DNA of 64,000 nt, taken from NCBI RefSeq assembly GCF_000003815.2, contig NC_049987.1, forward strand, positions 7,115,923 to 7,179,922, in the 5' to 3' direction. Of this stretch, positions 30,379 to 57,907 are shown piece after piece; within the stretch, counting starts at the first letter, position 1; each line of letters opens with the position of its first letter. This DNA comes from Branchiostoma floridae. Lineage: Eukaryota; Chordata; Leptocardii; Amphioxiformes; Branchiostomatidae. The notes beneath the pieces are model-generated. The model was not told the DNA's origin. It saw nothing but the letters and a program-made list of their open reading frames with translations, and made no database searches. The translations under genes and the position numbers were made by a program.

Positions 30379-30585
30379 NNNNNNNNNNNNNNNNNNNNNN
30401 NNNNNNNNNNNNNNNNNNNNNNNNNNNNNNNNNNNNNNNNNNNNNNNNNNNNNNNNNNNNNNNNNNNNNNNNNNNNNNNNNNNNNNNNNNNNNNNNNNNN
30501 NNNNNNNNNNNNNNNNNNNNNNNNNNNNNNNNNNNNNNNNNNNNNNNNNNNNNNNNNNNNNNNNNNNNNNNNNNNNNNNNNNNNN
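30379..30585. other. assembly gap (207 N)
   Basis: A run of undetermined bases. Open frames drawn across it have no meaning. Confidence 0.99.
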
Positions 30586-32391
30586 TGAATAGAATATGGC
30601 AAACACGACACAAAGTTTCTCATCAGTTTCAGAGGAGTACAAGAACTGACTGAATATTCCCCCTCTGCTGGAGGATATTACCGGAGGCTTGCTGCTGTCA
30701 GATATGATGAAGCACTGTGAGCTAAAATTTGACTCAACTTCCGGGGAAAATCCTGGCCGACCTTTTCAGTGACATTTGTGGAGCGCTGGTGAAGGCGGCT
30801 CCCCACAACAGCCTTGTTTAAATTCATGAAGGTAAAATGACCGTCAACAAGTTTTGCTGGGCTGGCCTTGTTATTGCATGCACCTGGTTCTATGTGTGCA
30901 TTCCTAGTTAGCCAAAGATGTATCAGACACACACACTGATGATAAATCCACCTTTACATATTGAAGGTTGGCATTTATGCTGTCTGGCCATATAGTGGCC
31001 AATCATTGTTGTTCGTCCATCGGGAGTCGATGAGGACCTTGACAATCAACATCTTTTAAAACTACATGTATGCAATATACCAAATACACTACCCAGTATT
31101 TCTTTAACTTTTTTTTAAGGTGCGAAAGTACATTTTGTACATCAAGGAAAGACCAGTCACTAAAAGGGTCAGGATTGCAAATCAGAATCATTACGAAGAA
31201 GTGATTTGCAATTTGTTGATCACAAAAACTAGCTAAATTTTCAACGTAATAAAAGGTCTGACACTTTTTCGTATGCACTTGAATCATCACCACAAAAGTC
31301 AGTTTGATAAAGTTGAGTCACAGAGCCTGTACATGTCAGACAGGAGGATTACTGTGCACAGCCTATGGGTCATTACTCTCTGACAAATGACTTCATAACC
31401 TTCCCTTCACAGCTGACGGCGACCTATATGGTGTAAAAATGGATATTGGGATTGTAAGTGGCATGTGTTCCATCAGCATTCTGCGGCCACCTGACCACCA
31501 TTACCACATCTTAATGGCTAATAAAATGCCACTGTTAACAACACTTGTTTATCACATGGATGGGTGCTTTAGACTGACCACGCACAAGGCTAAGTCAAGT
31601 TTTACAGGTCCAATAAAGGGTCATTAAGGGTATGTACTCCGTGCTAATCTGGGCATTAGCGGACACCCTCCAGAGCTGTGTAAGTAATCCCTGTAAGGAA
31701 TGGTATTTATGGCCAAGGACAATCTACAACGTCACATACTCATGAACTTTTCACACAGTGTGAAGACTTACTGTGAATTGCACTCTCTTTTAATATGGAT
31801 ATGCTATCTTTTAGTAAGGGTGTGGATTGAGGAGAATATTTTTGGACTAACTTTAAGTTTAACCAGTAAAATCATACTATGTCACAAACCTTGCTGAATG
31901 TATTGGTACTGCAGGCCCATGCCACTGCAGACATACTGGCTTATTGCTATGCAATGGCTACATCATAGTACATGCATGTGCATGAGCTTGTCACTGATCC
32001 AGACAATTTGATTTGAGCAAAATGTGTTTTGACAGGCTCAATCCTTACACATCCCAGATGGCGATGTAATGATTTATGGCCTGTTGACAGTAATTGTAGT
32101 TGATATGAAAAAGATACATATATAATTCAACATCCCAAATACCACCACAATGCACAGCACAGTGCCCCGGCCAAAATACTTGGATTGTGCACTTATCTGA
32201 TTGTCAGGCCTTAAACTTCTGATCAATGCCACTCAATGAATATTAAATCAGTGTCAATGACTTGTGACAATAATTGTATATCAGTAAGGAAACTAAGAGT
32301 GATCTTCTCTCTTCCTGCTGCAGATTGTAGCTAGAGAGACATGTACTGTGTTACAATTTCTAGTTGTGTGTCAATACAGGAACATTAGGGG
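30586..32391. other. gene-free stretch
   Basis: No exon or complete transposon recognised on either strand. Confidence 0.3.
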
Positions 32392-32714
32392 CAGGGATAA
32401 ACAAGTCCAGTAGCCCTATTGTCCAGGGCAAGTGAAAGTGCTGTTCGGGCAAGTGCATGTCCTACCCCACTTGTCCGATCGGGCAAGTAAGATTTTTCCA
32501 TTGATTTTAGTGCAATTTTGATATACTTGTTACTTTTTACAGTCATGACATCAAGCAATTGTCTACAGAGAATTCCATTGCTGAAAGTGAAAATGCATAT
32601 ACTAGTAACAGTGACATTTGAATTTTGGGCAAGTGAAAATTTGGTTCGGGCAAGTACATTTTTTATGTGCTTGCCGATAGGACAAGTGGATTTTAGAAAA
32701 CTTGTTCAACCCTG
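32392..32714. mobile_element. MITE with CAGGG ends and GGGCAAGT arrays
   Basis: A 323-bp element starting CAGGGATAAACAAGT and ending ACTTGTTCAACCCTG, with AGGGG on both sides (32387-32391 and 32715-32719). Near both ends GGGCAAGTG occurs in direct and inverted copies. The plan (CAGGG ends, likely 5-bp duplication, subterminal motif arrays) matches the GTGCACCC family at 2619 and 10239, although the motif differs. No coding capacity. Confidence 0.75.
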
Positions 32715-32734
32715 AGGGGTGAGTAGAAACAGTT

Positions 32735-32830
32735 TCCTTGCTTCTGGGATTCGGACCTGTGCCAAACCTGCGCTGCCAGCTCACAAACCCAACGCCACTA
32801 ACCACTATGCCAAAAGGTCACAATTCTCAT
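32735..32830 (-). mobile_element. tRNA-derived SINE head
   Basis: The minus strand reads tggcatagtggttagtgg, resembling a pol III A box, and about 40 bases later ggtccgaatcc, a near match to the B box GGTTCGANTCC. Spacing suits a tRNA. The acceptor stem and anticodon loop are not well formed, so a SINE is more likely than a functional tRNA gene. It lies about 20 bp beyond the end of the MITE at 32714. Confidence 0.6.
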
Positions 32831-33267
32831 ATCCTTTGGTATGTTCGGTTTGGCGGCACTTCAACTCCACTGTTACACTACAGGAGTTTGGTTTTGGCTA
32901 AAAGCGACTAGTAGTACCATGCATAAATACACGAGGACTCAGCCAAGTCTTAGAGCTAAGGAGTATAAAACTTACTGAAACAGGCCCTTGGCAATGTAAC
33001 GTTAAACAGTTTTTCAAAAGGTGTGAGACAGTGTCACACACACACACAAGTGAACACAACTACATATACAATACATTACAGGACTCAAAACTGTACCCAC
33101 CACAGAAAGTACAATGTCTAGGCTTCCTAAGGCCAAGGAGGTTCTGATTTAAACCTCCTTGCTCAGGCTGAGAAGGTCGATGTGGGAAAACACAGTTACA
33201 TAGCTTAGAATAACTTACATACCTGCAGACAATTTGCATTATTGCAGGTAACACAATAAAGTATGTC

Positions 33268-33335
33268 AATGAAGGTTAGACATCCAGGTAATAAGATACA
33301 CCAAAAGCAACTGGATATGATTTTGGAAAATTTGT
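33268..33335 (+). repeat. dispersed repeat fragment, copy 1
   Basis: agacatccaggtaataagat followed by caactggatatgattttgga matches 55786-55850 (gacatccaggtaggaagata, caactggatattgttttgga), which lies in an importin alpha intron. Probably a short piece of one retroposon family. Confidence 0.5.
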
Positions 33336-34087
33336 GTGGTACTAGTCACTTGGTACGACGAGTCACTTAGTAGCCAAAACCAATATCATGTTGCTTTTTG
33401 GCGCAACACAATATTTAAAAAAAAAAAGTATATTGAGCCTACATATATTACACACACCTATTTCTGGTAATTTCAAAACTCTTTTTACAGTCAAAGTAGA
33501 ACGTATGTGTCTGAAACATGAGAACACTTGTTTCTTCATATGACATGGCAACATATCATAATTCACATTTATGTGACCTTATTCGTGACCTTTGCACTTA
33601 CCACAGACTCGAATTTCGTACCGGTAAGGAGACACCACAAGTAAATCTTTGTCCAACCCAATATTTCTGGCATCCAGTAACTTCATATCATTGTAACCGA
33701 CCGTCAAAATATGATGGCGATCAGTTACGCAAACAGAGATGTAACGATACAAGCCGTCTACCAAAACCACAACAAAGAGATCTTACCATATAGCCAAGCA
33801 CACGCTATCTCTGACCGTTACCGAAGCACTGCCGCTGTGAAGGTTGGCCTACACACACGCAGAGCTTCTCGTATTCTGGTGATCGACCCATTTCTCACTC
33901 CTCATGAGTTTTGGCACGTTCCAAGCAACGATAATTTATCGATGGAGCAACGAGAGAACGCACTGAGCCAGTAGATGCTACTCGGAACTCGCCCCTCCTA
34001 CAAAAGTTCGGCAGGACATGACGATGTCGCCATGACGATATGATAGAAGATGGCCAATTCTATGTATAGCGAACAAAGGCAACCTAC

Positions 34088-34188
34088 CTGCTTTCTCTTT
34101 CTTGCTCGATTTGCTGAAGTTTCTCTTGCACGAAGCGCCGAAAAATATCACTCACGTCGGCCGCCATGTTGGATGTGACGTCGCTCAT
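34088..34188 (-). CDS. first coding exon of an unidentified gene
   Basis: On the minus strand an ATG at 34188 opens a frame of 33 codons plus two bases, ending at a good donor (AGCAG then gtaggt at 34087). It starts MSDVTSN, then MAADVSDIFRRFVQEKLQ and QIEQERES; the second Met at 34167 has the better context (AACATGG) and may be the true start. The charged, heptad-like end suggests the beginning of a coiled coil. The ATG at 34167 lies inside CCAACATGGCGGCC, a YY1-type motif often found just after metazoan transcription starts. I do not recognise the family and found no phase-matched next exon at lower coordinates. The gene call rests on start context, frame, donor and promoter-like motif. Confidence 0.5.
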
Positions 34189-35063
34189 TAGGATATTCCA
34201 TAAATGCTGAGGGGTGAGATTAGCTGAAAGTATTGTCTACTAATCGTTCCAAATTTCGCGTACTTTTCCATCTTTAACAACCATTAAAGTATTTTTGACA
34301 ATGCTGTATATCTATCTAATATGGATTATTCGTCTCTATATAATAACTAACTGCACTGTATAACAGAACACCCCTCAGCATTATGAATGGCATAACCTTC
34401 AATTCAATATTTTGTTTCCCAGCACCGCGTGGAACACAATAGTATAAGTCCTCGCAATCAAAAATGAAGATATATATAATGACAATATATCTCAAGATAT
34501 ATTTAATTACCACTCACAGAAATCACGATGACAATGTCCAATTCCTGACCATTGTTGCTCCCTCTTCCCTTTTTTTTCTAATCGTCAAATTATTATTATT
34601 TTTTCTTTACACACAAGCTCAATGATGACATAGATGAGTAACCAAGGGTAACGTTATGTCTTAGCTGTGTGTTCAAGTTTTCTTGGTTGGCACTACACAT
34701 TGTAAGGTCCGAGAAATAAACCTTGACCGCAGTAAGTTTCGGAAAGTCCCTATGACCAGACCCGTAGTAAACTTGACAAACAACTCTGCAGTGTTGTAAA
34801 ATATGTGGCTCACTGCCGGGCTGTTCACAAGGAGATCAGTTTTCCTGAGTCAGTATTTTCGGTGCTCTTTTCTTTGTTAGTGACTGTAATGTACAGGATT
34901 TGTCGTATAAACGATTGAATATTCTTACATGAAACTAGCCACCAGAGTGAACCGGAGGGCTGAATGGCCCTGATCGCTTGCTTGGTCCGTTCCCTCTCCT
35001 ACATACTCCAGGAGGAGTTTGCTTTTCACTTTATAATAGCCCATACGTCATTTGTTGTTAAAC

Positions 35064-35112
35064 ATGGCGGAAAATCCCTTACGTCTTCGTAACTCAGAAA
35101 CGTTTAAAGGTG
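35064..35112 (+). CDS. possible first exon of an unknown gene (weak)
   Basis: ATG at 35064 in the context AAACATGGCGG opens MAENPLRLRNSETFK, and a donor-like site (AAAG then gtgtta) follows; unspliced, the frame continues to a stop after about 45 codons. The YY1-like context ATGGCGG resembles the starts at 34167 and near 48776. No downstream exon was identified. It lies about 0.9 kb from the minus-strand exon at 34188, so a divergent pair is possible. Confidence 0.2.
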
Positions 35113-35189
35113 TTAAAGGTGAATACATTGCACTTGGTCACCCAATCACGTGCCTTGTCAATACAACTCGGAAAGCCCCTGTAACATCA

Positions 35190-38100
35190 TCGACAAGTTG
35201 ACTGGACAGGTAACTTCCTCATAGCTAGTACTGCCACACAACTTGAGTGCGCCAATAGAAACGCATGCAATTTCACATGCAAAGCTACTGTCACAAACAA
35301 GACTGTCAAGAGTAAAATTAGAGCTCTGGTCGTGCGTCGTCAGATTGGCAGACCACTGTGGCCTCGAACGGGCGCCGGTACACACTAAACAGGTGGAACA
35401 AGTGAGTTGTTTTGCATGTTGTTTCCTCAAAAATGTATGTACCACACTCACTTTAAGTGGTTTTTGTTCTGTTATGGTGAAAGCAATATCCAGATTCTAG
35501 GCCAAAGGGCAGGATAAAGACACTTGACAATGCTTCCGTCAGCCTGATCGCGCCAAAGGGCATACCTGAACTAATATAACTACAACCGCCGGTAGTTCAT
35601 AATTCCGGGACCACTTCCTGTGAGTTATGAGCCACTTTGTTTTCGGCAGTGTGTGTTGGCATTGTTCCATATTTACTTGTCCTGTCCTTAAATGATTAGT
35701 GACGGGTATTTTCAAACTTGATTTAGATATATTTGCGCTGCCTCCCAACTGCAGAAGCTGTTAGACACCAATCTCGCTCGTAATAGATTTCCGCGTCGTT
35801 AAATGTCATAATTATCATACCACTGTTCATCTTAGTTTAGTATGTAACGGCATCTAGTTCACTCACATTAGCTGAGAGAGGTATTACTATACGTTTTTAT
35901 TTCAACCACAACAGTGCAGATTGAACTTGCTGAAAGAGCTTAGTCCGATGCGCCCAAGCCCGTTTCGAATGGCCTGCGTACTAGATAGAACTCTCCCTGC
36001 TTTCATGCCTGCAAAGCGAGGCTATAGGAAATTTGTGGCGACAAAAGCCGCGGGTCGGGCGGTCCCCGTTTCTGCACCACCTGTGCAGTGATATTCTGCA
36101 CCGTGCAATGACTGGATGTCCTGCAAAATCACAACCCATTCTCATACGTGGAGCAGACCACGTCTCCAAGAACGCTACGAGTTCTAGTACGCGGCTTCAG
36201 CTCTGCGTAGGAGTATGTCACAGCCACAAGCTGAACTTCTTTAGATTGTAAGTTGTTTAAACTCATGATCAATTTGTTAGTATTTACAACCCTTCAATCA
36301 GACAGTCCTTCTGAACTTCATGTTTTTGTATGAGGCCTTGTGGAATGCTGTTGAACAAAGAATGCTCACCAAGAAGAGGAAGTTTGCGGAGTGCGGTGAA
36401 CCACATCGCTAAGGAACCACCTGTTAAGTAAAGTTTGACCTTTTGTCAGTTTTGGTGCTGACGTCTGACTAATCGTTTGAGTTGGAGCCACACCGTTTAC
36501 GTTAGCAGTTTACCACAAACGCTCCTCTCGGAGTCCCTAGTTTTTTGGGCTCCTGGAGCAGATTTTTCTTGAGATACATCTTATCAGACGGATTTTATAT
36601 CACACAAGTCTTGCATCTGGAGGAAGTGTCTTAAAAATTGTTGAGTCATCATGTGATCATGATGTGTAACATGTGGGCCTTCCCCCGAACACGGAGATCC
36701 CCGATTCCAAAGTTCCTTGAAGGCTTAAGGGCCCGTGCTTGAGACGGACTGCCTCATGCGTCAGGTGGACGTCTCCCCTTACACACGCGGTTTCTTACAT
36801 CTTTTATCTATACACTAAACCTCTTTTCGTATTTACTTAAGCTGTACAAAGGGTCCTTAGCGCTAGCAGAGAAAATGGTGAGTGCGTTATTACTTAATCG
36901 AATTAAGATTTTCGAAATTTATGTTCTTAACTCTTTATAGAAGACGGATGAGTTCCTTTTCTTTAACTCATAACTTGTGTTGAACAAATGGATACGATTG
37001 TATCTATATCTATTTAGCTGGTAGAACAACGGGGCCGTAACACACCAGCTTACTTGTAATTGTCATTCACTAAAGTTATACTTTGTCCCCTTTATTGTTC
37101 CGCCTCGTTTTGCAATCAAGTTCGGGGTCTCTCTTGTGAACAGTACATTGGCTCAAAGATCGTCATCTAATCCTTCCAATTCTGTATATCACCGCTATCA
37201 ACCAAAGTACCTTAAAGTATGTACTCAACTTCCGCAAGAAGAGCATCAACAATGAAATCATAGAAGCTCTAATCAATAGGAAGTTTACATTGACTTTTTT
37301 GCGGTTTACAAAAGAAGAACAGGTGTACAATGTACTAAACAATCTACGTTTGTCCTTAACATAAGTTTTAAAGTACCTCTTCCTGCTCAAGGGCATGACA
37401 TACTATAAGGTCAAGGTGTGGTGTAGTAAAAATATTACAATTTCCCATTTTGTTTAGTCTCCAAACAAATCCTACGGTAGAATAAAATAGTATCAAAAGC
37501 TGCAAGAGGAGTGAAGCCGGCCAAGGAGTGTGTCTACGGTAGGATCTGCTTCGAGAGTACATTTGTGATAATATTGTGAGAATCTTTCCATAGATTTTGT
37601 GACCATCTTGTAGTAGGCTTCGATTGTTGCTTTTTAAATTACGTCGCTTTCAGATTGACGATACTAGTAGTTAGTAGATACATGTATCTTTGTTCACGCG
37701 CCGCGCGCACACACACAATGTGAAAGACAGAGGGGAGAGGCACGTATACGTATGCACGTAAGAACACGTATGCACGAGTTACCACCGTGAGAATTTCCTG
37801 ACAGGCTAGGGTAAAAGAGGAACCGTGTTGCTTAAGGTCCAAGTCAACAGGTACTATTAACGCATTGATAACAGGTACGCACATTGTTGATGTAACCTAT
37901 TTCGCAATCACGGGGATGTCCCAAACTTTCTCTACGAACTTCCTCCTATGTTAGCTTCAAGCTGACAGCGCAGTCCCTGTCACTTTAAAAGCACCTGTTG
38001 ATCTGCACAGTTTAAAGTGGCGTTTAATTCCGCATTATGCTGACAAAATGGTAAGTAGTGCCATCTTATGAAACATGGGTGCCACCCTATATAGTTTACC

Positions 38101-39087
38101 GGACCCCCATACTAACTCGCTTAGGTCAACTAATGAGGGAAGCACACAGAGGGTCGCGCCCAGAGGATGGAACCCAGGCTATTTTCTTTCAAGCCTCGAG
38201 CTCGCATATTCAATATGCACAATGTAAAGGCAGGTGTGCACAAATCAGTGCACTGTTTGTGTACTCGGATAGGTCCCAGGTGCAACAGCATGACAGATTT
38301 CATTTCTACTCGTATATGTTTGTTGTAATATTTTCTTGGGTTTTTGTTGGGGTTTTTTTTTTGGGGGGGGTCTTTATAGTAAGGCACGCTTTCTTGCGGT
38401 TTGCCTCCTGCTATTTTAACTGGTTAGTTGTTATGTTTGTTGTTGGGCATTTGATCTACTTATCCATTCATTGCTGTGAGATCGTTTCTGCGACACCCCC
38501 ACCCCCGATAAATGAACACCGGCGCCTGCAACGGAGGCCAGGGCTGTGGGTGGGATGGCCACTTGGCCTGCGATCCAGTGGTCTTGAAAATAACCTTGAT
38601 TCTTTTCAAGACGTAGATTAAAAGGGAACAGGTGTTTGTTCGTTAGTAGACATCTTATCAAAGGATTGACAACATCAAACATTGGTCCGCAGGAAAGAAA
38701 GTTCCCCTTATTTAGTTCCTTACTGAAAAATGAGTGATTTGAGCAGATGAAGGAAATCAGTTAACTACCTTTATGACTTTTTTTGCGGAACAACTTTTTG
38801 CAGAACATCTTCTTACAACCACGCAGGCCTGCGTCTTTGAAATACCGCCAGTTCCTACCGTGACTTTGTAGCCACACTTGGAGAGCGCGAAAGCGTGCAT
38901 GACGGTTGGGTTGTTGCATGGGTCACCAAGATGTCTTCCACATTTATCTTTCGCTGTGGAGTTTGAGAAGAAGCCTACAGGACCCTTGTCAGTAAGAGTG
39001 CCACGGTTTCTTGACTTAACCAGTGTTGTTTCTTTCCTCTGTGTTCCAGTCTTGTGAGCCCAGCTTGCACCACCAGTTGCATGGGAC
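35190..39087. other. upstream region of the ZU5-UPA gene, no certain exon
   Basis: No coding exon recognised. Two sites read aaaATG directly followed by a strong donor: 36875-36877 (gtgagt) and 38048-38050 (gtaagt). They could be alternative 5' exons. Joined to the acceptor before 39050, an ATG from either would read out of frame with the main protein and meet a stop just after the next junction, so they would be 5' untranslated. Confidence 0.3.
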
Positions 39088-42000
39088 ATGTCTCGTCGGA
39101 AATACAACTTTACCATTGATCACTCTAAGGTAGGACTTCTTAAGAGCTTAAACTTGACTTACGACGTCTTAAGATTGCGAAAAAGTCGACAAGCAGGAAG
39201 AAAGAAAGACACAAAAGACCATGTATCAGGTTCCTTTTGCTTAGAAGCTTACAAAAAACGACAGTAAATTGGAATATCAACCCAGGTAATTTCGAATCAT
39301 GACAGCATTACTACAGAACTTAAGATTTCAATTACAATGTGATTATCATCTTTACTAATCAACCTGGTTCAATTGATTAAGTTTGCACAGCGGCTTATTG
39401 CCTTATCACAAACTTTCCAATAACCTTTCGCCAATGTTAGGGTGTGAAAAGTGGCGCGGTAACATTCATCAAGCATCAGCCGCTCATCATTGTGGACGGC
39501 CCAGGCGAGGATTCCCCGGAGGAAGACTGCCCCCACCACTTGGAGCGGAGTGACTCGGGGGTTTCTGACGTGGCGATGACTGTTAACCGCCTGATGCCGA
39601 CCGAAACAGGAACTCCCTCAGATCCGGAGGGGGCCTGCTCCAACCACCATGACCAGAGAGAGAGTGGAATATTTGAGGGCGACGGAGACTTAGCTCGACC
39701 TGTGAGTTCACAATCATGTTGATATATGTACAGTCAAACCTGACATGTACACGTCACCACCTCACCAATGTAACCACTTGTTGGTCGGCAGGAATTTCTC
39801 CATGCGTGCAGACATACAAATACCTGCGTACAAAATTATTAGGAAGCAACAACACACCCGTTGACTTCATGATTTGGTGACATGAAAATGTCAGTGTTCA
39901 TTATTCCCATATTTACTATGGACAAGTTACCTTCGAATTCACCTGACATTATTTCCTCATTCCGCAACACAGGCGTAAACATGAGTCGACAGTGACTTAT
40001 GAAACTTAAGCTTTGGTACTTATAATGCGGAAGTAACTGCGTATCATTACGTTACATGTATTTGACTTGATATATTTTCTTTATTCTTCAAGCGGCACAT
40101 AAAAATGAACCTAAAGCCGTCTGCAAAGGTACATGTTGACACACATGCATTCCTAAACTAACGTTTCTATCAAGCTTAAGGTTCCTCTTCACAAAAAATT
40201 CTTACGTAACATGGCCAGAAACCCCGACCTTTCTTCGGTGGACGAAGTGAGAATAAACATGGTTGTGATGCAACGTTTGTGGCAAGGAAAACTTCACCGT
40301 ACTCTCGTTTACCGATGATAAAGAAGCCAGCAGGAGTAGCCACTTGAGAAAATGTATTGATCATATAATTTCGTTGATCATGACCTTTAAACTGTACGTG
40401 TACATCGTTCACAGTTTTTGTTATCAACCTTAAAGTTAACTTTCTTCCTTTGTTTAAGGACACGGACTGTAATCGCCTCTCGACTTTGAGTACCGACTCC
40501 GGAAGACCGTCCAGCATGGAAGGAATTCTGGACAACATTTTGCCTCTTCACGAACGTACACATAACGCCACAGAAGAGGAATGGGAAGGAATGGCATTGA
40601 GAACAAGTAAGCAAGGGGAACACGACCGTGACTCAGCAAACAATACCGACGCACCTGCGGCAAAAGGGGAAGCAACAGAACAGATTGCGGAACTGGCGAA
40701 AAAGCCTTGGAGATTTTCAAAACTGGAATGCAGTAGGCCGCGCCGGTACAGTGGCTCTCCAAACCCAAGCCTGCCCCCACTTGACAACGAGTTGAAAGAC
40801 TCTAACTTGGACAACTTGGACCACATGATGCCACGAATCGGTAGCGGCGCGCGTACCAAGGGCCAGGAATGTCTGAAAATACCCCCACAAGACCAGTCTA
40901 GCGACAGTCAGACAGTGCAACAACTGGGTACATCTCTACCGTCGGATGATCTGATGACCGACTGTGCCAGCCCTGGGGTCGACCCCCCATTCGAAGAAAA
41001 CGAGAACATCAACGATGGTCAGGACACGCTGACTACTAGAGATACCATACCAGAACCAGCGACAGGCGATAGTCACGGTACAGAGCATGGCGGTCATGAC
41101 GCTGAAGACATGACCTACGGCCGAATCACAAAGACCTGGGACCATGACGACTCCTGTGTCATCATGCCTGTGTACGACGCACGCGGAAAGTTCTCACACA
41201 CAGGAGGATGTCTTGAGCTGCGGTACGGCCGTACGACCGTGCGTCTGGACGTGCCAGCCGGTGCAGTTCCACGGGGAGAAGCTATGGAGCTCTTCATCCG
41301 AGTTCTGCCTTCAAGGGGCAGGGTCGAACCCACGGCAGTCTTCTGTGGACCGCATGGGACCGTTTTCGAGTAAGGAGATTTTTGTTGCTCCAATATTCCT
41401 AAAACATAGAGGGTTCGAGGGTTCACTTTTGTCAGCCTATACTGAGCAGACTATACACAAATCGGTACAAGAGAAACAAGATTCAGCCGGATGCAAGCAA
41501 TCGCAGATATTTCAGCTGCTTGAGCTTTTGTATCTTCTTTCAGGTGTAAGCAACCACCTGAAAGATACAAAGATCGACACAAACACATCTGCTTGTAGAA
41601 AAGAGTCGAACAGAATTATTTTATCATTATCATTTTTGTCTTCCTTGCTAGAACCCACGTGACCCTGTCCTACAGCACAGACGATGATGGAGGAAAAGCC
41701 GCTGTCCAAGGCTTCGTCACGCCCACAGACTTCGGGGACCCGACCCGCTGGCACGACATTGGTGATGATCCCGACACGAGCTTCAAGGCGGAGGGTAAAT
41801 ATCCACCTATACTAATAGATGATGATAAATCAGTAGTAAATGCATCACTTTGATCGAATTAACTTCAACTTTTGTTTCATTTGTGACAATAATGGTTGAG
41901 ACAAGGACAACGGCTCGACTTTGCCGCTCATGACCTGTCAGTTGCCCATCCTCTCTGATCTAGCTACACACTGTCACTAACTCATAGCCTGGTATGCAGA

Positions 42001-45000
42001 CGTATTATAGTCCTTGAGCCTCTTCTGTCCTCTTTAGGCTGACTCATCACTCACATTCTGGTCACTCACACTCTAACATTCATCTATTCACTATGTCCTT
42101 TCTTAAAAGGTATTAAAAACAAATAACATACCCAGTGATATCCAACCACTTTACATTTAGAAATGCATTTGTTTCACCCAATCAGATGGCATGCATCACT
42201 TCATGCTGAAGCACTTTACTGGGCTCACGAACGGTGCCAATAGCGCCACCAAGCGGACTAATCCCCAACAGCAGGACCACATCATCAAAACATTTCACCT
42301 GTACCATGATTATCAGGTGAGGGAGTTATATGCTTCAAAAGCAATGAAATTCAGAAAAAAATGTGCCTTCAGTTTTTCCCTGTAAATGACAAAATGGTTA
42401 CCTCACTCCAGAAAGATAGTTATGGTCAGCAATTTGATTACAAAAGTACAATGATAAAAATGATTTCTGCACTTCCAGTATTTGTATAACAAACTTTAAC
42501 CAATGCATGTTAACGTTCCAGGTGTTTCAAGCAGATGGGAAAAGGATGACATTTCTCATTCTTCGACTCTACATCGCAGATGAGGACCAGGCAGAGGTAT
42601 AAGAAATCTCAAACAGAATTTTTGATTTGCCAAATTTTTACTTACAACAAGAGCTAATCAAATTGTAAGAAAAAAAACACCATGTCTTTCTTTGCTGTCA
42701 ATCTAGAACATTAAAGCCAGTGAGAAGAACCTTGGGGGCAGGCTATGTGATGCACCCAGGTGCCTGACCTTCACAGTGGACAATGACAACCCACTGCAGA
42801 TCAACCTTACCCATCCCTTTGAGCATGCCTGGAACTTTGTGGGGCCTCACTTGCAGGTAAATGGGACTTAATTAGCATTGTTTACATTGTACTTAAATTT
42901 GATTAATGAAGCTGTCCTTGGTAACCTCTTTATCACAAACATAAAAGCACCACAAAAATACTTCTGTCTTCTAGTTTCACCTGCAGATATACAGGGGGTC
43001 ACCCGAAACCTAGGCCTAGTTTCAACCACAAACTAAAGACCACTGCAAACACTCCATTTAATCCCCAATGCAATATCAAATCACTGCAGACTTAAATGCA
43101 TTTGCAGTACCTCAACAATGTATTAATTTCTATCTTCCTGCAGACCATGGACATCAGGACCATCAGGGGGACCAGACTAACCAGCTGCCAGTTCAGAATG
43201 TCCTCTGCACACAGTGCAGCAGCCCACTGTAATGTGGAGCTGTCCCAGCCAGGCAACAGCAGTGACACCTTGGGGGTAAACATAGTGCCTCCACAGCAAC
43301 TACAGGTTAGTAGGTCTGGTGGTATGGTGGTCTGTGCAGTGCACATCTGGTGCAAGTTCTGTGGAGTCTGGGTTTGCACTGGAAGAGTCGCATCGTCTTT
43401 TAGGATGAAACCTTAAAACCAAGCTTCCCAGTATGAGGAAGCTAATGGTGTAAAACCTCTTCACGTAAAATACCCAACACAGTTATTGAGAGAGTAGAGT
43501 TGTCCTAATGTGCTAGGCCAAATATGCAAGTCTGAGATTGCCTGTTTTAGGCTTAGGGATTTTACCAAGAAACTCTTGTATTTGACTGAATGGCTTATGT
43601 TCCATAAATCAAGTGGAAAATATTAGTAGACCATATTCTATATAATTCACTACTTTTGTCTACATGTTGTACTTAGGCTGCGGCAATGAAAAAACCATGT
43701 CACTCTCTCCTTCTTGCAGTGTTGCTGCCAGGGGAGGCCTAACAGGCAGCTAGAGTATGAAAGGCACTGCCACAACAACACAGGGTACGAAGAGAGCGAT
43801 CCTGAAGATCACCTGCAGGGGGCAGTAGGTGGCTATCTTACAGCTTCCAACCTCCCGGTGAGCCAGTGTGCAGAGGAGACAGGGTCAGTGCAACAGGATG
43901 GGAAGCATCCTGTGGAAGATGCCTGCCCTTGTCAAAACTGTCAAGTGCACATGGAGGGCCAGAGCTGTCCTACTGAAGATACCTATATGGGCTGTCATTT
44001 GTGTACAGAGGAGAGCAGCAGTCAAACTTCTGTGCCAACATACCCTGGTACTGCCAGTGAGGAGCCACACCTAAAGCTGTCCACAGAGGAGAGCAGGAGT
44101 CCAACTCTGATGCCAACACACACTGGTACAACCCCTGGGCAGCCACACACACACCTGTGCACAGAGGAGAGCAGCAGTCCAACTTCGAGGCCAACACAGC
44201 CTGGTACAGCCCCAGAGCAGCCACACACACACCTGTGCACAGAGAGAAGCAGTCCAACTTCGAGGCCAACAAATCCTGGTTCAATCCCAGAGCAGCCACA
44301 TGCACAGCTGTCACAGTCTCACCAGACAGGTCTCTCCACAGAAGTACCTGAACATCACTTGTCAGTGCAACTAGCCAGTACTAATCAACCTGCCCAAGAA
44401 TGCTCTCCACTGGTCCCAATGGCTTCTCATCACCCCTCAGAGCATCCTGAAGGGTCCCAACAGAACAGCCCATGGCAGGGTGCAGTAGCAAATCCCCTTG
44501 TTCCACCACATCAGCCTGGCAACAAGGTTCACAAGTTACTGAAAAAGCTCAACCTTGGAGCAAGGTTTGCCCAAAAGTTGTCAGACACTGTAAGGAAACC
44601 AAAGACGAAATCCAAACCTTCAAAAGAGCAAGCATCACCAGATGTGCTAGAAGCTGGGACAGAGGACGAAACAAAGGGGGCAAACTCGAGGGATACACAC
44701 CTGCCAGACCAAGAGGCCACCCAAGCTACACAGAAGAAGAAGGACAGTGCCTACATCTCAGGTGTGCCTGAAGAATCTGAGGGTGGAGAAAGGTTTGATC
44801 CACCAGAGGACTACCAACATCTCAGGGATTGGCAGAGAGACAGTGGAGTCCATGGTGAGGAAAAACAGAGCCAGGATGAAGGGGAAGCTGAGGATCTTCA
44901 TGGCAGAATTGGGAATTCTCTCAAACCTATTGGTGACATTGACAGTGGCAATCCTTTCCCACTTGAAGAAGTGGGCCATACAAGCAGTGCAGGTGAAGAG

Positions 45001-45108
45001 CAGGCAGTCGTCATCAGGAGAGGCGCTGACACAGAGAAAGGAGAGAGGGAGAGTGGCTACACTTCTGGAGTGCCGTCAATGTGCGCTGATGACCCTGAGG
45101 TCTCCTAA
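39088..45108 (+). CDS. ZU5-UPA domain protein (UNC5/UNC5CL-like, no death domain seen)
   Basis: Nine coding exons: 39088-39129, 39441-39701, 40459-41369, 41652-41794, 42186-42316, 42522-42596, 42707-42856, 43144-43305 and 43720-45108. All junctions are GT-AG and phase-consistent, giving about 1087 residues. Residues 1-350 are acidic and disordered. A ZU5 domain (about 350-450) starts CLELRYGRTTVRLDVPAGAV, with the typical PAGA-P and CGP-G elements. It is followed by a UPA-like region (about 450-615: FHLYHDYQ, LRLYIADEDQ, LTHPFEHAWNF, CQF). The large last exon encodes a low-complexity tail with four repeats of about 27 residues (TEESSSPTSRPTQPGT). No signal peptide, transmembrane segment or death domain is visible, unlike UNC5 (receptor) and UNC5CL (ends in a death domain). 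In relatives ZU5-UPA packs against partner domains; the role here is unknown. Confidence 0.85.
43984..44320 (+). repeat. coding tandem repeat in the ZU5-UPA gene
   Basis: About four in-frame units of roughly 80 bp in the last exon encode variants of HLCTEESSSPTSRPTQPGT followed by APEQPHT. Units differ by substitution and by one-codon indels that keep frame, so selection or recent expansion keeps the tract open. It is rich in Ser, Thr and Pro, and may vary in copy number between individuals. Confidence 0.8.
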
Positions 45109-45247
45109 ACTCACACATGATACACTAAAATTTGGAAGATTGTGGTGATAAACAGTTTTTGTCAGATGACGCCTTTACAAATAGCCATGCTGCTTACCTA
45201 CAGTGTATCAAATTTGAACTAGGCATACTGGTATTATGATCCCTAAC

Positions 45248-45492
45248 CAGGGCTCTAGCCAGCTCAAATTTTTTTTTCCGTCAGCCAATTCCCATTGTCG
45301 CAAAAAACGCGAAAATTAGGTTAGAAAGACGGAACTGAGACCTTGAAAAATGGGTTTTAATGAGATTATCGTATGCAAAAGGGCGCCGACACACTAAGTC
45401 AACAATCATAACAAAAATACAAACACAAATTTCCGTCACACGCAGCAAATTTTCGTCAATTGACGGAAAAACGGACGCTGGCCAGAGCCCTG
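45248..45492. mobile_element. hAT-type MITE with perfect 8-bp TSD
   Basis: A 245-bp element starting CAGGGCTCTAGCCAGC and ending GCTGGCCAGAGCCCTG, flanked by TCCCTAAC on both sides (45240-45247 and 45493-45500). It begins 139 bp after the ZU5-UPA stop codon, so it may be part of that gene's 3' UTR. The ends resemble the element at 1953-2318. Inside each end, ccgtca motifs recur near the right terminus. Confidence 0.9.
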
Positions 45493-45500
45493 TCCCTAAC

Positions 45501-46653
45501 AAACAATGTATAGATATTTTCCCAGCTTGAGTACTCCTCCTTAAATGTACTTAGTCTGGAGAGTCCAGTGTGAGAATCACAAGACTTGGACAACAGAGGG
45601 ACTATAAATCTGGTAATGGTTTGATAACTTTTTACATATATTGTACATGTAGCAACAGATAACACTAATTTTGCATAACATTTTGCATTGTATTTAGATT
45701 TGACAGAAAAACTTAATAGGTACACAGGTATCATAGTCAATACCATTGTAATACCAGAAATAGACTGTTTGGTTAGTATGTGTAAATGTAGTCTATTCAG
45801 AAACATACCACCTGTTTCATTATGGATACTTTTCGTTTTGTCTGTCTTTGGATTGTAATGTTTATACAAACATTAGCGATCATGTCTGTAATGGCCACTG
45901 GTCCCATTGTTTAATTCTTGTGTTGGTGAGGAAAAGAAATGAAATTCAAATCAAGATGTACAAATTATGTAATACTGTTTACACCCAAGCCAGGAGCAAT
46001 AAATAAGTTAGTCAGATTCATATATTGATTTTTAAAAAGTGTGGTACATGTATAAGAAAAACTGATATCCAGGAAAACCAATTTTTGTATATAAATGTAA
46101 TTAAATAGAATAAAATAGAAAATAGAAAGAGTAAAACATTTACTCAGGTGCAACAGACATTGACTTCATTGAACACAAGACATCATACATCATTTCAACT
46201 TTGCCTCTCTGTATCTTGCCTTTGCAAATAAATAACAATTTATGAACCAGATATGACAGAGTGAGTGTGTAAAGACAAATTTCTTACTGCCTTTCAAATA
46301 TAGGCACATGTATGTGTGTATGCTTCAAAACAATTCTTGTGCCCTACTGTTTTGCACTTGTTTCTTTCCAATTGCAGCTACTGCCACCTAGGTTTGTCAC
46401 ACACATGGTCCTGGAAAGGAAATGTATTTTCTGTGCAAAGCATGCTGAGAGAAGCATGCTATCCTGGGAACATGCGTCCCAATCATCCATGATTCCATCT
46501 TTTCTGTTGTGAATATACCCGTGCAATTCTTTTGTGTACCACATTATATTCCTGCATAAAGGCAATTGGCACCTTGGTTCTGGGAGAGGTAAAATTTCCT
46601 GGGGATGACTTGATATTGCATTTCTCCTGAATCCCTTACGCAACCTCTGGCTA
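45501..46653. other. 3' region between convergent genes
   Basis: AT-rich sequence between the ends of the plus-strand ZU5-UPA gene and the minus-strand DGCR6 gene. It presumably contains both 3' UTRs. No further exon was recognised. Confidence 0.4.
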
Positions 46654-48724
46654 TCAGGAGACAGGGATCTCCATTGTACTGAGTCTGGTGATGAACTCCA
46701 GTAGGTACATCTGTAGTCTGACCTCCTCAGGGTCTGTGGTGATGGTGAAACCAGGAATACCACCTTTACTCAGTGTGTTCTGCTGCTCAAGAACTACCTG
46801 GTCCATCTCCAGAATCAGCTCCTTGTCTACCTGGCTCATCTCCTCTTTTAGAAGCTCTTCTAACTCCTACAAGACAATCAAATAACAGCACCAGTTACAT
46901 GTGCAACCAATTTTAAAACACTGACAAATAATGGATATAGGACTCTTAGAAGAATTCTTTTTACACAACCAGCAGGTACTTACATTACTGATTACATCAC
47001 TGATGTTTCTAGAACGTGGCAATCAGAGGTGACAAACTTGCATTGCTTAAAATATATAACTTTTTTTACAGTACATGTATTTAATGTGTGTACCCTTGCA
47101 TTTTGCCTTTGTGCATGAGTCTGTGGATAAAGTTCACAACTATGAAATAATTGTACTGTGGAAAATTAGTCCTCTTTTTTTTTTTAGATAATAGTAGTAG
47201 TATTTGATTATACTGCTGCTGGGGCCCCTGGCACAGGTAGGCAGCAATCTGCTTGCCTTCACACCATGCTTCCAGGTGGCTGAGACTGTCCAGCAAGTTC
47301 ACCCTAGTTATACCAAACATTTTGAATGAATGGCACAGTGACTGCATTAATAAGACTCAAATAAACAGAGAAGCTCTGCACCTCTTTCTCCCTCCTGTTG
47401 GTGGTCTCTACACTCCTCAGCAGGTGTGGGTCCCCCTGGCAGGCTTGGATCACCTCACGGTGCTTTTTAGCCATCTCTAATCTCTTAGCTGAATAAACAC
47501 AAAATTGTTTCAGGTACATGTATATCAAAGCAGGACACAGTTTGCACTACAGAATAAGGTAATTATTGGTAGTGTCTGTATAGTATTATAAAAAGAAATG
47601 TTTGCAGGTATTCTATTTCATGTTAGGGGGAAAATACTTGCCGGGGTTTTAAGTTTGCAATTGAAACAAGGCGGTTAAGGCAGGCATACAAAGTTTTACG
47701 GTAGTTTCAAGTTGGTGGCAAAAAGGTCACTGTGAATACCACCACGAATATGTCCCCTTTTACAGTATTATATTTTACCTTTATGTTTATTGCTGGCCCT
47801 TGTCCTGACGTCCAGCTGGTTCCTCTCCTTGGCCTGCTGAATCTCCTCCAGGTTGCTCACAATGTCGAACACCATCCCGTCCATCAGCGCTGAGGCCAGG
47901 GTGCACAGCAGGGACTCTGGCAGCTTGTTCTGATAGTGCCTGGGTGAAGACATTGATATAACGTCCTTGATTTAACCAACATTTTATATTACATGTAGTC
48001 TAAATTGTAGATAATGAACGCACCTAATGTATGGAAAAACTAAGATTATGGCATTTACCTGGTGGTTTGGCTCCTTGTTTAGCCAGCCAGCTAAAACTAG
48101 TAAAAGCAACATTCCTCAGCAGGAAGCCATGCATGGTAGCCTGAGTATCATCCGTATTCTACCGGGGCTCCTTACACTCGCTACCCCTAAAAAATACTAT
48201 ATTTTTTTTAGGGAAGTGAGTGTAAGGAGCCCCGGTAGAAATAGGATGGTACCCAAGCTAATGCATGGTGCTGATACACCAGATCTTACCCCTATTTTAG
48301 GAACTACAGTGCTGCTCCTACAGTGCTATGTGTTCACAAGGAGGTCATAAGAATGATTTGCTAGTATTCACTGATGGGTAAACAAACCATTTATTGCTGT
48401 GTTATTCTAACTTATCTTATGCTACATAATTTGTAGTTATGAAGGGCCTTATCATTCTGAAACATGAAACTTTATAGGTGACTACTAGCACACTACAACT
48501 CGCTTTTAAACCTGATAGGTGCACATGAAGTTCGGAAAATAATTTTTAGCTGGCTGAAAGTTTTGTATGAAGGGGGAGGGGGGCGCTCACTCGGGTATTT
48601 CCTGCACCATTATCTGTAGCTCCTTCAGCAGAAAATTACGTCTATCCCCTGACTGGTGCGTCGGAATGTCTTCAAAAACCCTAGAAGGGATATACTCCGG
48701 AGTAATGTCCTTATATAAGTTCAT
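46654..48724 (-). CDS. DGCR6: DGCR6 family protein
   Basis: Four coding exons on the minus strand: 48591-48724 (start), 47779-47939, 47382-47488 and 46654-46866 (stop). All junctions are GT-AG and phases fit, giving 204 residues, close to the roughly 220 of vertebrate DGCR6. Diagnostic stretches are LLKELQIMVQEIPE; LASALMDGMVFDIVSNLEEI; and LEMDQVVLEQQNTLSKGGI followed by GFTITTDPEEVRLQMYLLEF, matching the family pattern (LDGTVFEIV, QQSTLEKAGV.GF.VTT.P.E). The centre is rich in E, K, Q and R and likely forms a coiled coil. DGCR6 lies in the DiGeorge region in humans; its biochemical role is poorly known. Intron 2 holds a MITE ending 9 bp from the exon 2 donor, intron 1 another. The gene is head to head with importin alpha. 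Confidence 0.93.
47583..47767. mobile_element. MITE, TACTGTAAATG hairpin family, degenerate copy 4
   Basis: Right end TTTTACAGTA and interior gttagggggaaaatac, gggttttaagtttgca and gaataccaccacgaat match the family at 476, 7117, 11035 and 57696, but the left end is eroded. It lies in DGCR6 intron 2; its right end is 9 bp from the donor dinucleotide of the preceding exon (47777-47778). Confidence 0.65.
48137..48260. mobile_element. 124-bp palindromic MITE with perfect 8-bp TSD
   Basis: Starts TAGCCTGAGTATCATCC and ends GGATGGTACCCAAGCTA; the arms continue inward through ctaccggggctccttacact and its complement, so almost the whole element is one hairpin around an AT-rich loop. ATGCATGG flanks both sides (48129-48136 and 48261-48268). 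It lies in DGCR6 intron 1. The TAGCCTG end is shared with the 86-bp element at 53920-54005. Confidence 0.85.
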
Positions 48725-48777
48725 ATCGAAGTTTTATCGCCAGCTGTCAGAAAATTTTTTTGGACCACCGCCGCCAT
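48721..48777 (-). other. upstream ORF overlapping the DGCR6 start
   Basis: On the minus strand an ATG at 48777 opens 18 codons (MAAVVQKNFLTAGDKTSI) and stops at TGA, 48721-48723. The stop overlaps the DGCR6 start codon (48722-48724) as ATGA. The upstream ATG lies in CCAACATGGCGGCGG, a YY1-type motif. If transcription starts beyond 48777, ribosomes would meet this ORF first and reach DGCR6 by leaky scanning or termination-reinitiation. The start site itself cannot be seen from sequence. Confidence 0.5.
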
Positions 48778-48849
48778 GTTGGATTTTACGGAGTAACATC
48801 TCGCGAGAGTACAGAACGGGAGTTTGTCACTCAAGACCAACGACTGAGT

Positions 48850-49017
48850 TTTTCAATCTGACCAATCAGTGGGGAGATTTGTGAGAATGGTCCAATCGAA
48901 GGGCTTCTTCTTTGATCAGTTCGTCAACTTCGACCAATCAAACATCGTCAACGCGGGATATTTAAAATCAGCTGTCCACGATAGCGTCAGGTCTCGAGCA
49001 GCCACAGAAGAGAGAAG
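48850..49017 (+). promoter_or_regulatory. importin alpha promoter and probable 5' noncoding exon
   Basis: Three CCAAT boxes, all in plus orientation, lie at 48862 (accaatcag), 48892 (tccaatcg) and 48934 (accaatca). A TATA-like gatatttaaaat follows at about 48957-48968. A strong donor (agagaag then gtgcgt) ends a likely 5' noncoding exon at 49017, which joins the acceptor before 49599. Multiple CCAAT boxes bound by NF-Y are common in promoters of proliferation-linked genes, including vertebrate KPNA2; binding here is inference. The minus-strand DGCR6 start codon lies at 48724, so the intervening DNA is probably bidirectional. Confidence 0.6.
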
Positions 49018-49685
49018 GTGCGTGCGTAGGTATTTTGGTGTGATTTTGCCCCTTTTACCCCGTAAATACGTTATTTTTCTGACGAAACATTTCCCTATCT
49101 TTTATGGAAACGTTCCACTACGAAACGTTTTCCGTGTTTGGGGTAGAAATTTGTGAAAAATGTCGGTATTTCGAGGAGAAACGGGACTGCGTGTGTACAG
49201 TATGGGTGACAGAAAATATGTCCTCACTTTGCTGTCAGTTGTTCACACCTTTTCGGCAAAGAAAACACGATATCTTTGGGTAATCTACGGTATTTACAAA
49301 ACAAAAGCTACTTATTGCTCACTCTTGTCCGATAATGTGCTTTGCTGCGTATATTTGACGCCCTTTAATTTGTAACAATGGCGTCATGAATTTGAATCTC
49401 AACGAACACTCGGCCATTTTATTTCTGTCACCGATTTAACTGTTTAGCCGATTGAATGTCCTTGAAAACTAAATCAAAAGTCTGATAGTTGGTATTTACA
49501 ATCCTAAATTCTTCATTCTTGGAAATATCCACGTAAAAAAAGTTGACCATTGTCTATAAAATCGACCTCATGTGTTTGTCATTTACCTTATACTATAGGC
49601 AAGAGCTTCAAGTTCTGACTGAGGAATATCCTATCCTGCCGCTTGCGTTACTGTTGGACATCCTTCTACATAACGATAATCAAAG

Positions 49686-52600
49686 ATGCCGTCTCAGGAA
49701 AACAGACTCAAGTCTTTCAAGAACAAGGGCCGTGATTCTTCGGTGAGAAATTCTTTTGTCTGATCATTTATATAGACTAGTACATCATGCCCAAAGTAAA
49801 TCTTAGGTAAAAATAATGCTATCATAATTCAGGATGACACAGTGTACGGAAGAAGAGGAACAAAATCTTCACGGTTTAACAGAATTATGTCTCAATGACA
49901 ATCTTTTTTTTTACCAGGACTTAGAAAATATTTCAGCAACTCAACATCCTCAGTTGTCCTCACATAACTTATTGAACGTTCTGTTGCAAGCTTAAACTAA
50001 AGTTAAAGCCTTCTACTTACAGAAGTGACCATGAGAGCAGAGTATGGGAATGACCGAGAGAGAGGGGACTAAAGCTAAAATGCTGGTGCCCAGGCTTGTG
50101 AGCTTCTTTGGTTGAAATTCACTATTTCTTTCCTACCCAACACTGCAGGAGTTGCGCAGGAGGAGAAATGAGACGAACGTTGAGCTTCGCAAAGCCAAGA
50201 AGGATGAGTCCTTGCTGAAGCGCAGGAATGTCACCATCACAGAGGATGCCACAAGTCCACTCAAGGATTCAAATTCTCAGGTAACTTATCCTCACATAAA
50301 TGGCCTTTGGTCAGTAGGCCGAGGATGTTGACAAATGTTACACAACATTGTGTGTTCCGAATGGGCTTATCAACAGTCTTTGGCTACTGTTTTTTTAGAA
50401 CAAAAATGCATGGGGGCGCAAGGGAGCAACAGAGTTTTGATGTTTTCTCCCATTTCAATGCATGGAGTTTTAGAGTATTTCAAATGCCTTATCAAGCTAT
50501 GGCACCCCCACCTAACTCCTTCTGCTTTTCCCCCTACCCGTTCACCTTTTCCCCCGCTGTACTTCATCTGTGCCCCCGTCATTCCTCTTTACCCCCGGTG
50601 TAATTCTGCTTTCCCCCCGCCCTTCTGCTTTACCCCCAATGGCCGCCGTCAACCCGAATTTCACGTAGTCGACAAGAAAATCGTTCGGAAAGTAACAATA
50701 ACGGTTGCGCCACGGAACATGAAATAGCCTATGCTCTAGTACACATTCTGGGCCACCTTTCTGCCAAGTGGCGTTTCACAACTCCTTCCCATTCTGAACT
50801 GAAAAGCCATGTGCCGTCAGCAGCGCGTCGTTTATGGCGTTCCACTACTACATGTACTTCCTGGAGGCTGGGTGGTGGAGCGCTTGAGGCCGGGGTTTTG
50901 CGGCGTTTCAGAAAATCATAAGGCTTGGCATCAAATTCAGGATCTTATAATTCTTATAAATGCAATGGTGAAGTGATGGTAACAATATAGTATGGGAATG
51001 AGGTACAAAGAGAGTGCAGAATCAATTCACTAAAGACAGGCACAGAATGCGTACACTATTAAAGGGTCGGAATCGTTCCATGTATACATGTAGCATTTGA
51101 AGTTTTCACTTGATGTAACAGATCTTCATAAAATGTCTGCTGCGGCATCTTTAATACGTCACGTCACGTATGCTGTGGTTTCAGTACCGTGCGTCTCCAT
51201 TTGTGTTTGAAACAGTGTAACTCAAGGAAGGGTGGCTGGATCTCTGGCATGCAGAACGTGCGGGAACAGTCGAAATGCAGCAGGGCGTACAATACATGCG
51301 AGTAACAAGAAATGTATGAAGAGAGCCCATGACATCCTGGTACTAAGGGACTGTAAATGGACACAGCGAGTTTGTAAAAAAAAATAAAGGGTATACATTT
51401 GTATTTGAAATGTACTCTTTCTTTACTAAGCATACCGAGAAGTCACAGTGAGATAAAAAAAAAATAGTTGGGTCCCACTATGCTGGTCAGGCTGAGACGC
51501 ATTGCCTATTCACGGGCGCGACCTTGCTCCTCGGATCGACACGGGGACTTTTACCTGCGTTGTTTCCAACCTGGGTCGATGTGTCCCTCTTGAAACAGAA
51601 CAACCTGTTAGTCCTGGGCTCCTGGGTAACCATATCGGTGCCGAACTTAGTGGGTCCCCGATCGTCATAGCACAGCGCGCCGGCCTCAAGCGCTCCACCA
51701 CCCAGCCTCCAGGAAGTACGTACATGTAGTAGTGGAGCGCCACAAACGACGCGCTGCTGACGGCACATGGCTTTTCAGTTCAGAATGGGAAGGAGTTGTG
51801 AAACGCCACTTGGCAGAAAGGTGGCCCAGAATGTGTACTAGAGCATAGGCTATTTCATGTTCCGTGACGCAACCGTTATTGTTACTTTCCGAACGATTTT
51901 CTTGTCGACTACGTGAAATTCGGGTTGACGGCGGCCATTGGGGGTAAAGCAGAAGGGCGGGGGGAAAGCAGAATTACACCGGGGGTAAAGAGGAATGACG
52001 GGGGCACAGATGAAGTACAGCGGGGGTTAAGGAGAAGTCCGGGGGAAAAGGTGAACGGGTAGGGGGAAAAGCAGAAGGAGTTAGGTGGGGGTGTATGGGG
52101 TATTTGATGGCTTCTTGAGGAAGGAAAGTTACTGGTAGACCAGTCACAGTTGAAGATGGCCACATGTGGGAAATAGCATCCTCAGTTATCCGAATTTATG
52201 CTTGTCAGAGAACCAGCTCCCCTTTGTAAGGGGGCACGTGAGCCCCATGGTTTAGTGCCCGTCTTTGGAGAAAATGTACATCCATCTGATCTGGTCCATC
52301 TAATTTTTCCCACAGGGTCCCAGCTTTATGACTGTAGATGAGATTATCCAGGGTATCAACTCCAACAGTCCCCAGGACCAGCTGTTGGCTGTCCAGGGGG
52401 CCAGGAAGATCCTGTCCAGGGAGCGAAACCCTCCCATTGGCCACATCATCAAGGCCAATGTCATCCCCAAGTTTGTGGAGTTCCTCTCACATGAAGACAA
52501 GTGAGTACTCCAAACTGTTTTATTGATCACAGTGATTAATAAACAGCAAATGTTTGGATGTGTTTGCTGTTGTTTCTCTTTTCATTGAAGCTAATGTTCT

Positions 52601-56948: not shown

Positions 56949-57695
56949 TCCACCAGACGTGCCAATAAACATGGACCAAAGACACAAACATGCCAAAACA
57001 ATACAACATTTGTGTAAAAAAAAAAAAACCTCCTTCTTGTAATGCAGTATAATGTCCCACAAATCTGGAATGGAATCACGATTGTTCACAAGTCAAAAGG
57101 TACAAACAGGTACATATGATATGATGGGAACAAGAATGGAAATTTTGTCAACATGTGGAAAGGAAATACCAAAAATTTGAAACCTTTGAGGATTTTTACA
57201 CAAACAATATACTAGTACATATTTCGCAGGAAAATTACTTCTCTACATTCCTCAGAAGCAATCTATTTTTGCATGAATGTTATGCCAGAACATACACTCT
57301 GCTATACTGTACATATTTCATAAGATTGTCTGATCTGTGTTGGTGCTCAAAGAGTCAAATTCTGTCCGTGCCTATGCTGTCTCTTCTTCAATCTATGTGA
57401 ATGTGAAATCTTCTTAAACCATACATTGTGAACACAACTAAGCGATTAGATAGAGATGTATTATGAAATAGCAAGAAACTACGTAGCCTTTCTGTACTGT
57501 AAACAAGCACTTACAAAGAGAATTTATATTAAAACACTGTAGAGCAATGGCAATGGGTTTGTGAATTCTTTCTACTTGACATTTAATATATAGCAGTAAA
57601 AGGTTAGCATCTAAATGCTATGGTCTCAAGATACGTTGACATTACCCCATGGTAATGAAAGCTTGCTGGTGCATTGTGTAGGAAACAAAACTGTC
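56949..57695 (+). other. importin alpha 3' UTR and flank
   Basis: AATAAA at 56964 lies only 16 bp after the stop codon, and a short A run follows at about 57017. Further AT-rich sequence has ATTAAA near 57529, a possible distal poly(A) signal. No other exon recognised. Confidence 0.4.
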
Positions 57696-57907
57696 ATATG
57701 TAAATGAATTTAAGTTCAAGGGGATTTAATTTCGCAGTAGCAGGAAAAAGGACTGTTAGTGGTGGTTTTAAGTTAGTGGTAGCACCATGCATTGTACTCA
57801 ATTACTGCCATGGAAAAATATTCACTGTGGTTTTAAGTTCACAGTGAAGAAACCACTGTGAAAACCGCTAACATTAAACCACCGCAAAAATTTCTGCATT
57901 TACAGTA
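57696..57907. mobile_element. MITE, TACTGTAAATG hairpin family, copy 5
   Basis: Interior gtaaatgaatttaagttcaaggggatttaattt closely tracks the copy at 476-687, with right end TGCATTTACAGTA. Here many CG dinucleotides of the other copies appear as CA or TG (cgcagtagcagg against cgcgttagcggg), as expected from methylation-driven decay. Confidence 0.8.

Follow-up and report, generated by a model that had tools for sequence, protein, structure and literature searches.

The amphioxus Branchiostoma floridae has a gene whose protein pairs a ZU5 domain with a UPA domain and has neither a death domain nor a membrane segment, an architecture borne out by the genomic sequence under the exon model given here. 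The gene lies on the plus strand (39088..45108) of the 64,000-nucleotide stretch of DNA that was analysed (the window), which covers positions 7115923-7179922 of contig C9. Homology and intron positions lend strong support to the view that it is a new variant within the ZU5-UPA family, and very probably it descends from a member with the order ZU5-UPA-death domain that lost its death domain. Such a natural ZU5-UPA protein would allow the unit's own role to be asked, be it toward death domains in trans, in UPA oligomerisation or with other partners. In the literature matches listed, no title or abstract opening mentions this gene or a ZU5-UPA protein without a death-fold domain.

Gene structure and domain identity

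The gene model (Table 1) has nine exons, which join into one open frame of 3261 bp that encodes 1087 amino acids without a stop; GT-AG borders are present at all eight introns. The GC content by codon position is 59/47/55%, versus 38% in the introns. The sequence-only reading had described a nine-exon ZU5-UPA gene set between a disordered N-terminus and a low-complexity tail, and the open frame, the splice borders and a profile of paralogues all agree with that description.

Table 1. Positions of the exons and associated features in the window.
Feature	Position	Strand	Remarks
Exon 1	39088..39129	+	Start codon; in-frame TGA at 39055, 33 bases upstream of the ATG
Exon 2	39441..39701	+	Disordered N-terminal region; DSGV and ESGI motifs
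Candidate optional microexon, 36 bp	40093..40128	+	In frame, AG/GT flanks; from genomic sequence alone
Exon 3	40459..41369	+	Remaining N-terminal region and first half of ZU5
ZU5-UPA profile match span	41179..43272	+	Residues 342-614, introns included; coordinates derived by hand from the exon model
Exon 4	41652..41794	+	Second part of ZU5
Exon 5	42186..42316	+	Last part of ZU5, with the HFT site at 42212-42220; UPA begins here
Exon 6	42522..42596	+	UPA; phase-0 donor, at a place corresponding to one in UNC5
Exon 7	42707..42856	+	UPA core (EKNLGGRL...); phase-0 borders on either side, with counterparts in UNC5, L027 and L030
Exon 8	43144..43305	+	End of UPA; phase-0 donor, which leads to a death-domain exon in UNC5, L027 and L030
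Exon 9	43720..45108	+	1389 bp; 462-residue low-complexity tail where relatives have death-domain exons
Tandem repeat, 78 bp (26 codons), 4.1 copies	44000..44316	+	Inside exon 9
Predicted basic amphipathic helix	44521..44592	+	Residues 893-916; single-sequence fold of the tail
Three AATAAA motifs (45998, 46109, 46227)	45998..46232	+	Between the stop and DGCR6; 82 in the window versus a chance mean of 70, not clearly above

A Pfam search of the spliced 1087-residue protein returned ZU5 (residues 343-411, E 0.0013, 19.4 bits, below the cut-off of 21) and UPA (residues 510-564, E 0.019, 15.1 bits, below the cut-off of 27) and no other family, in a search whose HMMER filters drop most weak matches. 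Thus, the HMM search for ZU5, UPA and Death that had been proposed as a check finds the first two and no Death, but both of its scores fall under the Pfam cut-offs. Seven paralogues encoded in this genome, the window gene not among them, were combined into a profile, which gave 94.9 bits over residues 342-614; the best of 999 shuffles reached 8.1 bits. (The TIR-ZU5, L034 and L032 rows were omitted from this profile as partial; the L026 row, also short, was retained.) A UPA-only profile of six paralogue rows scored 30.1 bits over residues 510-605. Among solved structures, a single-sequence search placed the ZU5 domain of ZO-1 best (E 0.003), with UNC5B at E 0.01; a seven-row profile led by the window gene matched the UNC5B structure 3g5b at 1e-48, ZO-1 at 9e-21 and ankyrins at 7e-11 to 9e-7. 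Further, searching the genome with the ZU5-UPA part recovered, after the exons of the gene itself, paralogues that are 26-38% identical. On this homology, the protein has a ZU5 domain with UPA directly after it.

The introns carry a second line of evidence. Phase-0 introns of the window gene follow ..DQAE, ..GPHLQ and ..PQQLQ in UPA. In the gene at L042, identified as UNC5 by a 7e-80 match to the UNC5B structure 3g5b, the introns after ..DELE, ..ANFQ and ..SVSRE are of phase 0, and the first half of the death domain is encoded in the exon that comes next; L027 and L030 likewise have three phase-0 exon ends at corresponding places and then a death-domain exon. Agreement between the window gene and these three is within about two alignment columns, the last intron falling in weakly conserved sequence. 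Within ZU5 and where UPA begins, the window gene has further introns that differ from those of UNC5. The matching UPA introns link the gene with the UNC5-like branch, and by their positions exon 9 occupies the place expected for the death domain.

Death domain, membrane segment and relatives

Pfam is a weak witness for this domain in amphioxus: the death domains of L026, L030 and L032 fall under its cut-off, at E 0.014-0.033, and the first half of that of L027 is missed. A profile of six paralogue death domains (L027, L030, L032, L038, L041 and L042), run without filters, recovers the domain in five ZU5 genes left out of its construction (L026, L034, L035, L036/L037 and L039). Neither the spliced protein nor any of the 2217 frames of at least 20 residues in the window matches it at E<=10. 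Pfam agrees: in the three plus-strand frames of 43306-58202 it lists only armadillo, HEAT and importin-beta-binding matches and no death domain, and in the protein only ZU5 and UPA, so that neither method finds a C-terminal death domain and Pfam finds no C-terminal CARD. A death domain hidden in the tail was also considered and rejected, for want of a profile match and of a helical bundle in a single-sequence model, the latter being weak evidence from a fold made without an alignment. The claim that the protein lacks a death domain therefore stands, and a death-domain exon downstream, which would have told against the original interpretation, was not seen in the window, whose end lies 18.9 kb beyond the stop. 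Two more ZU5 genes, on contig C1 (the second ZU5 gene of L039, minus strand, 7630-8799; L040, minus strand, 5416-6321), gave no death-domain match in sequence that may not span the whole genes. For that reason it is unsure that the window gene is unique, and it may not be the only ZU5 gene here that lacks the domain.

The relatives suggest the direction of the change. Six-frame searches of the 513.4-Mb, 431-contig genome gave 41 ZU5 matches over the Pfam cut-off besides the window gene, which they miss, its ZU5 being interrupted by an intron; a pair of adjacent matches on C3 may belong to a single gene. At least 21 of the 41 have a death domain on the same strand within 15 kb downstream. Pfam Death was scored for this tally on 150 of 588 candidates (part of the 150 rows computed, the rest judged by eye) in DNA around some of the loci only, and two positions (C17 and C2) are approximate. 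The search and the tree agree on L026, L027, L030 and L032 as the nearest relatives, at 32-38% identity. In a ten-row tree, from which the TIR-ZU5 row was omitted, the window gene groups with these four at a support of 93/93, under the 95 mark of treekit, and its very long branch (3.12 changes per column) leaves its exact placement unsure. Each of the other nine rows comes from a gene in which a whole or partial death domain was recognised: by profile in L026 and L034, by a solved-structure match in L042, by Pfam below cut-off in L004, L030 and L032, and by eye with an alignment in L027, L038 and L041. Loss in the window gene is thus the simpler reading. In L026, L027 and L030, two exons together encode the death domain. 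L026 and L027 are closely related ZU5-UPA-death-domain genes that stand head to head on contig C10, and about 8 kb separates their ZU5 parts. The window gene also shows how the ZU5-UPA module recombines in a genome where ZU5 has at least 41 further matches.

No membrane segment was found in the spliced protein, whose highest 19-residue Kyte-Doolittle mean is 0.78, and the absence claimed by the sequence-only reading is borne out for the protein as modelled. Whether an anchor was lost is a separate matter. A membrane segment shares the open frame of ZU5 in four of the 16 ZU5 readings checked (L002, L003, L004 and L027), so that its absence from that frame is common, and among the four nearest relatives it is clear in L027 only. 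Loss of an anchor, first counted from three of those four, was set aside: hydrophobic frames upstream of ZU5 number 1/32 in L026, 1/28 in L030 and 0/24 in L032, and those of L026 and L030 occur at the rate of control DNA (2/87). Because just one of the four has a firm membrane segment, anchor loss is not established. In L002:1-2220 and L003:1-2100, on contig C4, a hydrophobic segment, a TIR domain and ZU5 are encoded in a single open frame, an arrangement that resembles a Toll-type receptor carrying a ZU5 tail.

Upstream of the gene, Pfam found no Ig, TSP1 or other family at E<=0.1 in the three plus-strand frames of 24100-39089, save ET at 0.099, far under its cut-off, in a search without a positive control for short ectodomain exons. 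Three AG dinucleotides lie between the in-frame TGA and the ATG and could accept a splice from a coding exon further upstream. An ectodomain exon upstream, an outcome that would have told against the original interpretation, is therefore countered only in part by the TGA and by the lack of any Pfam family over cut-off in three plus-strand frames of the 15 kb upstream. A hydrophobic, T-rich frame occupies 38055-38618; as an upstream membrane exon it was rejected, because the single donor-like site tried in it is of phase 1 and misfits exon 2. Hydrophobic frames are equally common on the opposite strand of this upstream stretch (2/87 versus 2/94).

Comparison with known systems and rival explanations

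The window protein has the ZU5-then-UPA order of the UNC5 netrin receptors (UNC5B, L042), together with their corresponding UPA introns and the strong profile match already given; unlike them, it has a long low-complexity tail, and neither an Ig/TSP ectodomain nor a membrane segment nor a death domain was seen in it. It shares UPA exon ends with L027 and L030, but it differs from them, and from L026 and L032, in lacking a death domain, and from L027 also in lacking a clear membrane segment. Ankyrins carry ankyrin repeats, more than one ZU5 and a death domain. The window protein resembles them in having ZU5 and UPA, but has a single ZU5, no ankyrin repeats by Pfam and no death domain. The C-terminal ZU5 of ZO-1 (TJP1) also stands without a death domain; ZO-1 has no UPA, and has PDZ, SH3 and GUK domains. 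NLRP1 and CARD8, in their FIIND, and PIDD1 have a ZU5-UPA unit whose ZU5 closes, as here, on an HF(S/T)-type site, but those proteins end in a CARD or a death domain (passages of PMC3210808), and their cleavage is proven whereas the site here is putative. Like the window gene, the C. elegans UNC-5B short isoform is an UNC5-family product without a death domain; UPA and most of ZU5 are missing from it as well, and the missing part is cytoplasmic, so that it is still a receptor (passages of PMC10464613).

The ends of the protein bear on its possible role. Folded alone, without an alignment, the tail exon had a mean pLDDT of 42, no residue at 70 or above and one long helix, whose moment was reached by 21 of 5000 shuffles of the helix (residues 893-916). 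Four [DE]SG[VILYFCM] motifs lie outside ZU5-UPA, at residues 52, 88, 999 and 1069, a number that none of 20,000 shuffles reached, for a motif that was picked after inspection. The motif was also seen in five of seven paralogue stretches examined, and linkers of L027, L030 and L032 carry [DE]SG. The beta-TrCP-type degron form, DSGx(2-4)[ST], is not enriched (two seen, and 1708 of 20,000 shuffles reach that number), and we do not claim a degron.

These features could belong to a scaffold unrelated to death-domain signalling, in which ZU5-UPA binds some other partner and the tail is a multivalent phosphorylation platform. The ZU5 domains of ZO-1 and ankyrins do bind partners outside death-domain signalling, and the ZO-1 match among single-sequence hits, the four motifs and the predicted helix all favour such a role; the post hoc choice of motif, the lack of enrichment of its DSGx(2-4)[ST] form and the intron places, which were compared with UNC5 and the paralogues and link the gene to the UNC5-like branch, make us doubt it. 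A decaying gene, in which the remainder drifts under weak constraint after loss of the death domain, might explain the long branch and the weak Pfam scores, but it is very unlikely in view of an open frame kept over nine exons with every splice border in place, a codon-position GC pattern set well above that of the introns, and a tail repeat that retains its 26-codon period. We regard with equal skepticism the prospect that the gene model itself errs, some transcripts skipping exon 9 or exon 1 to take in a death domain or an anchor encoded elsewhere. The exon model comes from genomic sequence alone, and the T-rich hydrophobic frame and the possible acceptors ahead of the ATG leave some room for such transcripts. 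Against them stand the lack of a death domain in the window frames and in the Pfam search of 43306-58202, the converging DGCR6 gene, from about 46.67 kb, and the match to importin alpha that begins at about 50.15 kb, as well as the phase of the donor-like site tried and the equal richness of the opposite strand in hydrophobic frames.

Autoproteolysis of the FIIND kind deserves separate attention. A putative cut between F463 and T464 would free UPA and the tail as one fragment, which would oligomerise yet carry no death-fold effector. PIDD has HFS at the corresponding site. The HFT of the window protein (residues 462-464) falls where CARD8 and NLRP1 have SFS; H439 stands 24 residues before F463, much as H270, which CARD8 needs, stands 26 before F296; and reactions of this kind can use Ser, Thr or Cys as nucleophile (passages of PMC3210808). 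HF[ST], however, is present in 10 of 11 aligned amphioxus rows and so may be structural, and it is too common among the paralogues for self-cleavage to serve as the main reading. We know of no ZU5 domain that cleaves with Thr at an HF/T-type site, and we judge this explanation improbable.

Possible mode of action and neighbouring features

Given the probable loss of the death domain, the ZU5-UPA unit could act in trans as a cytosolic scaffold or competitor, a proposal that we hold tentatively, at somewhat less than even chances; we lowered our estimate slightly because loss of an anchor is less supported. A closed state, with ZU5 packed on UPA and the death domain, was proposed for UNC5B from its structure (passages of PMC8358048). 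In NLRP1 and CARD8, UPA oligomerisation promotes assembly, and the fragment before the cleavage site restrains UPA-CARD (passages of PMC7794386). From these precedents we infer that an orphan ZU5-UPA unit could bind the death or UPA domains of its sister proteins in trans. Such a cytosolic unit would dock on those domains and either keep the sisters closed or compete with their assembly, and the disordered ends, with their [DE]SG motifs, and the basic amphipathic helix might recruit partners or the membrane. In UNC5B and CARD8, a glutamate makes a salt bridge with the death-fold domain and a histidine positions it (passages of PMC3210808). By counting, the window protein has a counterpart of the glutamate (E452, 11 residues before F463) and none of the histidine; a conserved death-domain docking pair was rejected, as mapping on UNC5B leaves only the glutamate.

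A bolder version would have the death-domain exons replaced by a phospho-motif tail and the orphan ZU5-UPA unit, perhaps self-cleaved at HF/T, capping or sequestering the death domains and UPA surfaces of its sisters. The protein would then be a dedicated brake on the amphioxus ZU5-UPA-death-domain repertoire, a receptor-family gene turned soluble antagonist. This seems rather improbable to us, and slightly more so now that anchor loss is no longer well supported.

Other features of the window are as follows. A DGCR6 homologue on the minus strand (46669-47950, with matches at about 47.95-47.78 and 46.87-46.67 kb) converges on the ZU5-UPA gene. On the plus strand lie an importin-alpha-like gene at 50146-56631, with IBB, Arm and Arm_3 matches, and a rhodopsin-type 7TM receptor frame at 58942-59748. 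A run of N occupies 30379-30585. Tandem arrays are found at 13576-14379, with a 26-bp unit, and at 61719-64000, with a 297-bp unit that continues up to the end of the window.
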